A stretch of 64,000 nucleotides of DNA, from assembly GCF_000419585.1 (NCBI RefSeq), contig NZ_ATTH01000001.1, forward strand, positions 208,005-272,004. The letters are read 5' to 3'. Shown here in pieces: positions 39,953 to 42,884 of this stretch. Below the pieces are notes generated by a model. The model was not told the DNA's origin. It did no database searches and saw only the letters and a program-made list of their open reading frames with translations. Each line of letters opens with the position of its first letter. Position 1 is the stretch's first letter. The DNA is from Salisaeta longa DSM 21114 (GTDB lineage Bacteria; Bacteroidota; Rhodothermia; Rhodothermales; Salinibacteraceae). Position numbers and translations under genes: made by a program.

Positions 39953-40357
39953 ATGGGAGAACTGCTCGTCGTCGGAGATCGCATCCTTATTCAGCCCAGC
40001 GATGGGGAAGAACAAACGTCTGGAGGGCTGGTGCTTCCGGAAACGGTTGCGTTGCAGGACAATGTGCGAAGCGGATATGTGGTGAAGACGGGCCCCGGCT
40101 ATCTGATGCCGAACCCGGAGTACACCGAGGACGATTCGTGGAAGCCTGATGGGAGCATGGTTCGGTACTTGCCGTTGCAGGCGGAGCCTGGTGATTATGC
40201 CTTTTTCTTGCGCGACAAGGCGATTGAACTGCGCTACAACGACCAGGAATACCTGATCGTGTCGCACGGGGCGGTGCTGGCCCTGGTGCGCAATCCGGAA
40301 GAGGAGCCGTCGGATACAACGCTCGACGACCTCGACGATCTGTGGGCTGACGAGTAG
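39953..40357 (+). CDS. GroES-like co-chaperonin family protein
   Basis: A 134-residue protein with a Cpn10 fold. Recognisable parts are VVGDRILIQPSDGEEQTSGGLVLPE, corresponding to the GroES N-terminus and mobile loop region, and the later GDYAFFLRDKAIEL block. It is longer than the usual 95-97 residues because of a mid-protein insertion (PGYLMPNPEYTEDDSWKPDG) and an acidic tail of about 20 residues ending DDLDDLWADE. No groEL is next to it, so it is probably an extra, divergent co-chaperonin rather than the main GroES. Confidence 0.75.
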   Translation: MGELLVVGDRILIQPSDGEEQTSGGLVLPETVALQDNVRSGYVVKTGPGYLMPNPEYTEDDSWKPDGSMVRYLPLQAEPGDYAFFLRDKAIELRYNDQEYLIVSHGAVLALVRNPEEEPSDTTLDDLDDLWADE

Positions 40358-40362
40358 CGGCG

Positions 40363-42174
40363 CTATGAAGGTTGGGCGGAGGGCTGATCCCACCACGGCG
40401 TTTCGTCTTCTTCCGCATGAGGAGGGGGAACGGTAGGCTGCTGGGCCTCGGGGGCGTGCTCCGTGCCTTCGAGGGATGGGAGCGTCGCGCTGTAGAAGAG
40501 GTAGCGCACGTAGCGCGCGAGGGAGAGCGCGGGCAGCGCTTCGCGTCGTGCGAGCACCTTTTGTCGTTCGGTGGATTGCACGCGCTTCTTCTCTTTCGCA
40601 CGCGCGATGCGGCGTTCGATGTCGTCGATGCGGCGCTCAACGTAGCGCTGGAGCCGTCGTTCTTCGGCAGGGGAGAGGCGATCGGGAACCTCGTCCTCAT
40701 ACGCGTGGACCAACGCGGCCCGCCACATCAAGAGGCGTGTACGCGTTGTGTCGCCAATGCGCCGCACGTCACGGAGCCGCTTCGGGGTCGCTTCGGCAGC
40801 CGTTCGTATGTTGGCCGCCTTCAGGCGCACCACAATCTTGTGCGTGATGCCGTCCACCGCGCGTGCCTCGCCAATGAAATGGTGCTTTAGGCGATCGTGC
40901 AGGGCGTTTTGCTGCACGGTTTCCAAACGATCGGCGCGCCGTTCGTCGATGGACGCGCGCACGTCGACCTTTTGGGACTGCAGCGTGTCGATCTCGCGGG
41001 TCAGCGTCTCGCACCGCGCACGTAGCCGTTCGGCTTCTTGCGTGAGGCGCCGGTGACGGCGTACGATGGGCTGCTGGCGGTAGCGCCATCCCACGAGCCA
41101 CACCCACACCGCTGCGCCCCCACCGAGGGCCGCGAGGCCCCCAACGGGCGACATTAGCACGAGGAGCGCGGTGGCAGCGAGCCCCGTAGCCAGGGCCAGC
41201 GGGGCAAGCCAGCGCTCCCAGCCGGTGCGCGGCGGTTGGCGACGCGCGCGCCGCCGGGCGCGCGCAGCCTGCAGCGTCCAGCGGGTCGAGGGTTCAGCAG
41301 ACGATTCAAGCGGGGGCACATCCTCGGGCGGCATGTAGCAGGCGTGCTCCAGCGCCTCAACCGACGGCCGCACGGCCTCAATCGTTCGCAGTTCTGCAAA
41401 CAGGGCCGAGGCGCTCGGATCGTAAAAATCCGCCTCGCGAAACAGCATGTTTTCGCCATTATCGAAGCGTGCCCACAGCGCGGGCCGGTGGCGACACGCC
41501 TGAAGCGCCACGTCGATGACGCGGGCGGCGAAGTGGTCGAGGGTGGCGTCGAAGAGCGCGTCGGTGCGGTCCGGGTGCTGGTAGTTGCGGTGGCCCACCT
41601 CGGCGCTCGACCGCTGCTTCAGCGCGGGCACCCACATCGTGTCGTAATCCACCAGGCGAAGGACGCCCGCGTCGGTCACGAGGATGTTGCCGTGCTGCAG
41701 GTCGCCATGCGCGATGCGGGCTGCGCGCAGCGATTGCACGACGCGCCGCCACGTGCGCCGCAGCGACTCGAGTACATCGGGGGTCTCAAGATGATCGGCG
41801 ACGAATTGGTTCAGCGGTGTGCCGTCAATCCATTCCATTTTGAGTACCGGATACCACGTGCCGTCAACGCGGATGCCCTGCGGCTGAAAATCGATGGGTA
41901 CAAGCGCGTCGGGAGCATGCGCCGCGAGATGATCAGCCAGGGCCGCGTAGCGTTCGTCCAGTGCATCGCCTTCTGCAACGAAGCATTTGGCCGCCCAGGT
42001 GCGCCCCGTGGCGGGGTCGGTGAGCGGAAAGACGGCCGCGAACGCGCCGGTTACGGGTTGGGGGAGGCCGAGGACGTTGGTGCGTGGCTCGGCCGCTTGC
42101 AGGACGGGATCGGCGAAGGCGGTGGCTGGAAACTGCACCGCTTCTTGATAGGCGCTTGGGGTGGGATAGGCCAC
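40363..42174 (-). CDS. Protein kinase-like membrane protein with helix-hairpin-helix (YegI-like)
   Basis: A 603-residue protein. The N-terminal kinase-like domain has the lysine in WAAKCF (Lys63), the catalytic loop HGDLQHGN (156-163, Asp158 and Asn163) and the metal motif DYD (176-178). A basic linker precedes two close membrane helices (about 335-385). A coiled coil (about 390-450) and a helix-hairpin-helix-like segment (GITHKIVVRLKAANI to RRIGDTTRTRLL) follow, then a charged tail. The GTG at 42174 begins 2 bp after the upstream PP2C stop; a TTG at 42186 is an alternative and no nearby ATG fits. Kinase plus PP2C pairing resembles E. coli YegI/YegK and TerY-P-type modules. It probably signals by Ser/Thr phosphorylation; targets are unknown. 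Confidence 0.78.
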   Translation of the reverse strand: MAYPTPSAYQEAVQFPATAFADPVLQAAEPRTNVLGLPQPVTGAFAAVFPLTDPATGRTWAAKCFVAEGDALDERYAALADHLAAHAPDALVPIDFQPQGIRVDGTWYPVLKMEWIDGTPLNQFVADHLETPDVLESLRRTWRRVVQSLRAARIAHGDLQHGNILVTDAGVLRLVDYDTMWVPALKQRSSAEVGHRNYQHPDRTDALFDATLDHFAARVIDVALQACRHRPALWARFDNGENMLFREADFYDPSASALFAELRTIEAVRPSVEALEHACYMPPEDVPPLESSAEPSTRWTLQAARARRRARRQPPRTGWERWLAPLALATGLAATALLVLMSPVGGLAALGGGAAVWVWLVGWRYRQQPIVRRHRRLTQEAERLRARCETLTREIDTLQSQKVDVRASIDERRADRLETVQQNALHDRLKHHFIGEARAVDGITHKIVVRLKAANIRTAAEATPKRLRDVRRIGDTTRTRLLMWRAALVHAYEDEVPDRLSPAEERRLQRYVERRIDDIERRIARAKEKKRVQSTERQKVLARREALPALSLARYVRYLFYSATLPSLEGTEHAPEAQQPTVPPPHAEEDETPWWDQPSAQPS

Positions 42175-42176
42175 GG

Positions 42177-42884
42177 CTACGCGGAGCAATGAAGGCGGAG
42201 AACGGTGGTGTCGTCGTTGCGGAGCGCTCCCGCGGCCCGCGCTTTTTGGACGGCCGCTGCAAACGACGGGGGCGTCCATCCTAGCGCGCGCGTCGGGGTG
42301 GTGGCCAGGAGCCAGGCCGCCGCGGCGTCGGTGGCCAGCACCATCACATCGCCCGGCTGCCACGATCCACGGGTGTGCTCGATCGCGGGAGCTGGGGCGT
42401 CTCGACGGCTGCACAGCAGCGCAGGACGATGCGTAAAGGCGTCGGGGGTGTCGTGCGGCCAAGCCTGAAGAAGCGCCTCGTTGCGGAGGTGGAACAGCGC
42501 ACAATCGCCCACGCTGCAGGCCGTCCACGTGAAACCGGGCCGGACCACAATGCCGAGCGCGGTAGCAAACGCCCCCTGCGCCGCCTTCTGGGCTGCATAC
42601 CACGGCAGATCGGTGCGCTGCGGCGCCACCTCGGCGTGCCAGGCGTCGCGTGCATCGTTGGCCGCGTGTGCAAAGGCTGCGGCCGTCAGGGGGGCGGCCC
42701 GGGCAATGGCGGTGGCAAGATGCGCGGCCCACGCGCCGGCAAAAGCAGACTCGGTCGCGCCGTCTGCAATGGCTGCTGCCTGCTGGTGATAAGCCGTAGC
42801 GTCCTCGTTCTCGTCGGGCGCGTGTCCCTGTTTGGGGACCGTCAGAACGGTGGGCGCTTCAAAGAGCGCAGAGCCAGAAGGCAT
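42177..42884 (-). CDS. PP2C-family protein phosphatase
   Basis: A 235-residue protein. The PP2C metal-binding motifs are present: ENEDA with Asp28, ADGATES with Asp41 and Gly42, SVGDCALFHL in the middle, LATDAAAAWLL, and the final RNDDTTVLRL. It should remove phosphate from Ser/Thr residues in the cytoplasm with two manganese or magnesium ions. The stop is 2 bp from the GTG of the kinase gene, so the two are translationally close and likely antagonists on one substrate. The start at 42884 is chosen; a GTG at 42935 would add 17 residues. Confidence 0.82.
   Translation of the reverse strand: MPSGSALFEAPTVLTVPKQGHAPDENEDATAYHQQAAAIADGATESAFAGAWAAHLATAIARAAPLTAAAFAHAANDARDAWHAEVAPQRTDLPWYAAQKAAQGAFATALGIVVRPGFTWTACSVGDCALFHLRNEALLQAWPHDTPDAFTHRPALLCSRRDAPAPAIEHTRGSWQPGDVMVLATDAAAAWLLATTPTRALGWTPPSFAAAVQKARAAGALRNDDTTVLRLHCSA

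Follow-up and report, generated by a model that had tools for sequence, protein, structure and literature searches.

We analysed a window of 64,000 nucleotides from Salisaeta longa DSM 21114 and followed up a gene pair on its minus strand (G000:C1:248370-250888 in its own genome), in which the gene of a PP2C phosphatase is followed by that of a Ser/Thr kinase (Table 1). A first-pass annotation made from the letters alone had given the two reading frames and placed the GTG of the kinase 2 bp after the TAG of the phosphatase; both points were borne out by the sequence. On the other side of the kinase, a Cpn10 gene ends 5 bp from the kinase stop. The genes read directly around the pair included no recognisable tellurite or defence cluster.

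Table 1. Features at the locus, in positions of the window.
Feature	Position	Strand	Basis
PP2C-type phosphatase, TerY-P kind	42177..42884	-	235 aa, ATG at 42884, TAG at 42177-42179
Ser/Thr kinase, predicted to be membrane-anchored	40363..42174	-	603 aa, GTG start at 42174; STK_OB 2.8e-76
Kinase domain, residues 2-290	41305..42171	-	K63, HGD158LQHGN163, D176YD178; PADLOC match renumbered from GTG
Predicted two-helix membrane hairpin, residues about 322-363	41086..41211	-	hydropathy, 17/17 sequences
Predicted long helix / coiled coil, residues 369-434	40873..41070	-	structure models
Helix-hairpin-helix-like stretch (putative), residues 440-482	40729..40857	-	HHH_5 E 0.13, sub-threshold; aligns with YegI HhH
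C-terminal predicted helix, residues 502-546	40537..40671	-	alignment and structure model
Divergent Cpn10 (GroES-like) gene	39953..40357	+	PF00166 8.7e-11; convergent with kinase

The assignment of the first gene to the PP2C family held in profile searches, as the protein matched PP2C_2 (PF13672) at 9.9e-9, over the Pfam cut-off, and the PADLOC model PP2C at 4.1e-26. Four aspartates that would form the metal site in this family (D28, D41, D186 and D225) are conserved in 96% or more of the 26 sequences compared. The kinase assignment likewise agreed with the profiles, the PADLOC model STK_OB giving the match listed in Table 1 and the Pfam Pkinase profile 6.7e-6, which is under its cut-off. The STK_OB match covers model positions 2-291 of 562 and thus the kinase half only; the OB half (positions 292-562) has no match in the protein, and a Pfam search at E up to 1 found neither an OB fold nor a zinc ribbon at the kinase C-terminus. 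Lys63, Asp158, Asn163 and the DYD motif (residues 176-178) are in place as first described, and K63, D158, N163 and D176 are invariant in all 17 aligned kinases, the window included (alignment A1, the window with 16 of the 19 distinct complete relatives; L020, L028 and L029 were left out). A GxG, usual in the first hairpin, is absent.

The additions that the first-pass annotation had seen behind the kinase domain survived unequally. Both hydrophobic helices were recovered in hydropathy analysis; in 17 of 17 sequences the flanks of the hairpin are basic on both sides and only a few residues separate the helices, and the hairpin sequence itself is poorly conserved in the 17-sequence alignment. 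Because the turn is very short and both flanks are basic, all parts of the kinase apart from the hairpin should be cytoplasmic, a topology read from the sequence. A coiled coil is also predicted, with a block pLDDT of 74-93 in the first part of the tail model as against about 55-76 in the full-length model. The helix-hairpin-helix (HhH) part was weaker than first stated: HHH_5 is sub-threshold in the window tail and, with E values of up to 1 allowed, shows up in two of the 13 tails (a further alignment, A3, holds the window and 12 relatives), and E. coli YegI scores 9.3e-4, likewise under the cut-off, so that the HhH name of the tail rests on sub-threshold Pfam matches. Two AlphaFold runs with three sequences modelled the long helix, and their mean pLDDT was 63 and 47, with the HhH part poor. 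Binding of nucleic acid by the putative HhH-like tail is possible. Near the C-terminus of the kinase, a Trp-Trp pair (residues 594-595; 40390-40395, minus strand) is invariant in 17 of 17 sequences.

A profile of the tail gave nothing of note against solved structures (best E 0.15), but hhalign found an alignment of 78 columns between it and YegI of E. coli (E 9.7e-5, probability 58). In a control search with this profile, YegI ranked first among 3152 sequences, 3000 of which were shuffled versions of YegI, at E 0.0007; the second rank was the YegI reading frame in extended form, and the best shuffle reached E 0.92. With hhalign the YegI tail scored 40, whereas none of 200 shuffled tails scored above 26. 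Since the full-length kinase profile aligns with YegI in the tail stretch only, and in view of the control ranks, the tail is probably shared with YegI through a remote relationship, and the kinase domains of the two proteins belong to different branches.

It had been noted that the VWA protein expected beside such a pair was lacking. This is right for the neighbourhood, as no VWA gene adjoins the pair, but not for the genome: a TerY-type VWA orthologue lies on the same chromosome at G000:C1:1562142-1563005, 1.31 Mb away. It was identified in a search of 27 family genomes with the TerY of Longimonas, to which it is 83% identical, and it matches the PADLOC model TerY at 2e-93 over the full model. 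The MIDAS residues D20, S22, S24, T144 and D177 are invariant in 14 of 14 TerY sequences (alignment A2, 14 of the 23 distinct TerY). Neither a PP2C nor a kinase of the triad was found within 14 kb around this gene. The Pfam profiles PF00092 and PF13519 score TerY below their cut-offs, and a PF00092 search of the genome did not have the orthologue among its matches; two PF00092 matches at G000:C1:1.12 Mb were considered as the partner and rejected, the TerY orthologue being a different gene. In Longimonas halophila (L011) and in an uncultured Rhodothermaceae MAG (L010), the VWA gene stands directly upstream of the phosphatase, and its product matches PADLOC TerY at about 1e-94.

The three genes form one adjacent block in the order TerY-PP2C-kinase in 20 of the 27 family genomes (a count that takes in G013, G014 and G025, whose kinase is cut by the contig end, and G008, with a kinase split over two matches), and a TerY match was obtained in 25 of the 27. 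Fission of the kinase in G013 and G014 was considered and rejected, because both kinase pieces end at contig ends, as expected of an assembly gap. Of the 25 family genomes having both PP2C and kinase, 23 have them side by side, in line with the pairing first proposed. Three genomes keep this pair together with TerY elsewhere in the assembly, namely that of the window (G000) and those of two other species (G017 and G021), and in G001 and G010 it is TerY that adjoins PP2C, the kinase lying on a different contig. In G002 the searches gave no TerY or PP2C and, of the kinase, a fragment that lies at the end of a contig; in G022 none of the three genes was found. When the TerY neighbourhoods of G000 and of G017/G021 were compared over 13-14 kb, TerY was the sole gene in common, which fits with separate relocations. 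Distances between kinases and between TerY proteins were correlated across 20 genomes (r 0.92, reached in 0 of 2000 permutations), as would be expected from shared descent alone; within the row of the window's genome the correlation was 0.38 only.

The module extends beyond the family. All seven genomes examined from three other families of the order carry the three genes in the order seen in the window's family, although in four of the seven PP2C and kinase are some 3 kb apart. In one of these four genomes (G029; L131 7338-10303), the gap is occupied by an isocitrate-lyase gene and the gene of an HTH/M78 regulator. Among 394 genomes drawn from the phylum, 17 had an STK_OB match. The tail profile matched 14 of these 17 and no other genome, and all 14 fall in the same order as the genome of the window. 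In the remaining three, G242, G272 and G396, no match to the window-type tail was obtained. In G272, nine WG-repeat matches take the place of the tail in a triad-type kinase (L140 5379-7343), with TerY and a PP2C-like reading frame near it. Because the G272 kinase has WG repeats instead and these three genomes lack a tail match, the tail is the variable part of the system. Of 19 selected genomes, all 10 with an STK_OB-type kinase match had TerY, against none of the 9 others, among which G002 with its kinase fragment was counted. No phage record matched the kinase; two plasmid records matched TerY, at 36-46% identity. The module is stably kept in these genomes and mostly inherited vertically; it is core in the family and present in three more families.

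Because a TerY orthologue is present in the window's own genome and the TerY-PP2C-kinase block in 20 of the 27 family genomes, we consider the pair to be two thirds of a TerY-P-type triad, whose TerY was split off by a chromosome rearrangement and acts in trans from 1.31 Mb away (probability about 0.72). The apparent lack of a VWA partner is explained by this relocation. In such a triad, the kinase would be anchored by its helical hairpin on the inside of the cytoplasmic membrane and would phosphorylate itself and a target on Ser/Thr, and the PP2C would remove the phosphate and so oppose it. TerY may serve as a switchable scaffold that uses its MIDAS metal site to dock on kinase, phosphatase or target, and the coiled coil and HhH-like tail could make the kinase dimerise or recruit it to its target, the YegI-kind tail standing in for the zinc-ribbon or OB tail of published triads. 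What speaks against a triad here is that TerY is not co-transcribed with the pair, and a working triad is assumed.

Two other readings seem improbable to us. According to one, the pair has become a stand-alone two-gene switch after the split and TerY serves something else, much as the first-pass annotation had supposed a system operating without its VWA partner. The unlinked TerY genes in G000, G017 and G021, where PP2C and kinase stay adjacent, would suit this idea; nevertheless, the unlinked TerY is as conserved as the linked ones, with its 83% identity and all MIDAS residues, TerY is present in every genome where a complete kinase was found (those of the family, the window's own included, and 10 of 10 further kinase-bearing genomes tested), and in G001 and G010 it is TerY and PP2C that stay together instead. 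We give equally little weight to the second reading, a stand-alone anti-phage defence system of the kind formed by TerY-P-like modules with an OB-tailed kinase, which act as stand-alone antiphage systems (PMC11090510). Although the PADLOC models of that system match all three proteins, the OB half of STK_OB finds no match, the module behaves like core genes (found in 25 of the 27 genomes of the family, with a conserved Cpn10 neighbour), the kinase occurs in no phage record, and no more than two plasmid records hold a distant TerY. That the kinase senses the state of the envelope through its membrane part and signals to nucleic acid through the HhH, as first proposed from the two membrane helices and the HhH-like stretch, is very improbable, because a periplasmic domain is absent (the turn is a few residues long with basic flanks in 17 of 17 sequences), the hairpin is poorly conserved, unlike a ligand site, and the GxG is missing.

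The TerY-P-type triad as we read it here is a known kind of system in a modest variant, with its VWA gene relocated and a tail of the YegI kind. TerY-P consists of TerY, a PP2C and a Ser/Thr kinase (STK) with a zinc ribbon, for which a metal-sensing phosphorylation switch has been hypothesised (PMC11090510), and a TerY-P cluster has also been described in Helicobacter (PMC4978471). The traits of this triad, including its stand-alone STK_OB form in PADLOC, are found here: a TerY-like VWA protein with MIDAS, a PP2C phosphatase and a triad-type kinase, each matched by profile, and in relatives the three genes lie in one block, as in published triads. In contrast, the genome of the window does not hold them as a single cluster, and in place of the zinc ribbon or OB tail its kinase has the predicted membrane hairpin, coiled coil and HhH-like tail. 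The tempting reading of an orphan kinase-phosphatase pair is thereby corrected, and a scan of the neighbourhood can miss a partner that has moved.

The resemblance to YegI/YegK that had been suggested beside TerY-P also stands, through the tail. The E. coli genes yegL-pphC(yegK)-yegI encode VWA, PP2C and kinase in the same order as the family block, and in YegI membrane helices precede an HhH tail, as they precede the HhH-like tail in the window kinase. YegI is reported to be bound to the membrane, to undergo autophosphorylation and to be a substrate of the phosphatase PphC (PMC13232886). However, the YegI kinase domain and PphC gave no alignment with the window kinase domain and PP2C by BLASTP or hhalign, and none of YegI, PphC and YegL matches the TerY-P models at E 0.001. 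YegI has been described as lacking conserved motifs (in a title cited in PMC13232886), unlike the window kinase, which keeps them. The shared kind of tail joins the TerY-P triads, with their defence and tellurite associations, to the poorly understood YegI/PphC/YegL module of E. coli. Our literature searches found no paper on YegI and helix-hairpin-helix, and, among the papers listed, none linking TerY-P with Rhodothermus, Salinibacter or helix-hairpin-helix (HhH).

The Cpn10 gene is the convergent neighbour of the kinase in 22 of 32 evaluated genomes (17 of the 25 from the family and 5 of the 7 from other families), where G025 was not evaluable, G022 has no kinase and G007, with 769 bases left on the contig, was scored as no. 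The window copy is the weakest of three Cpn10 matches in its genome, the two stronger ones lying elsewhere. In E. coli, yegD of the HSP70 family converges on yegI just as the Cpn10 gene converges on the window kinase, a parallel that may be a lead or may be due to chance. A wider proposal, which we put forward as speculative and rather unlikely, is that the triad left its defence/tellurite setting and now serves the Rhodothermales as a core switch at the membrane, acting in proteostasis or stress, with a YegI-like kinase tail, a VWA scaffold in trans and the GroES-like neighbour in the same pathway. As Rhodothermus marinus has been genetically modified (PMC5822342), the role of such a triad as a core system is testable.

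A similar arrangement was observed in a Thermoplasmata archaeon MAG (L012, 7377-10367), where a TerY (3.3e-87), a PP2C-like protein and a kinase are encoded side by side. The kinase gene lies on the opposite strand there, and an HhH tail match is absent from that genome, unlike in the window. Its product is 36% identical to the window kinase over residues 42-263.
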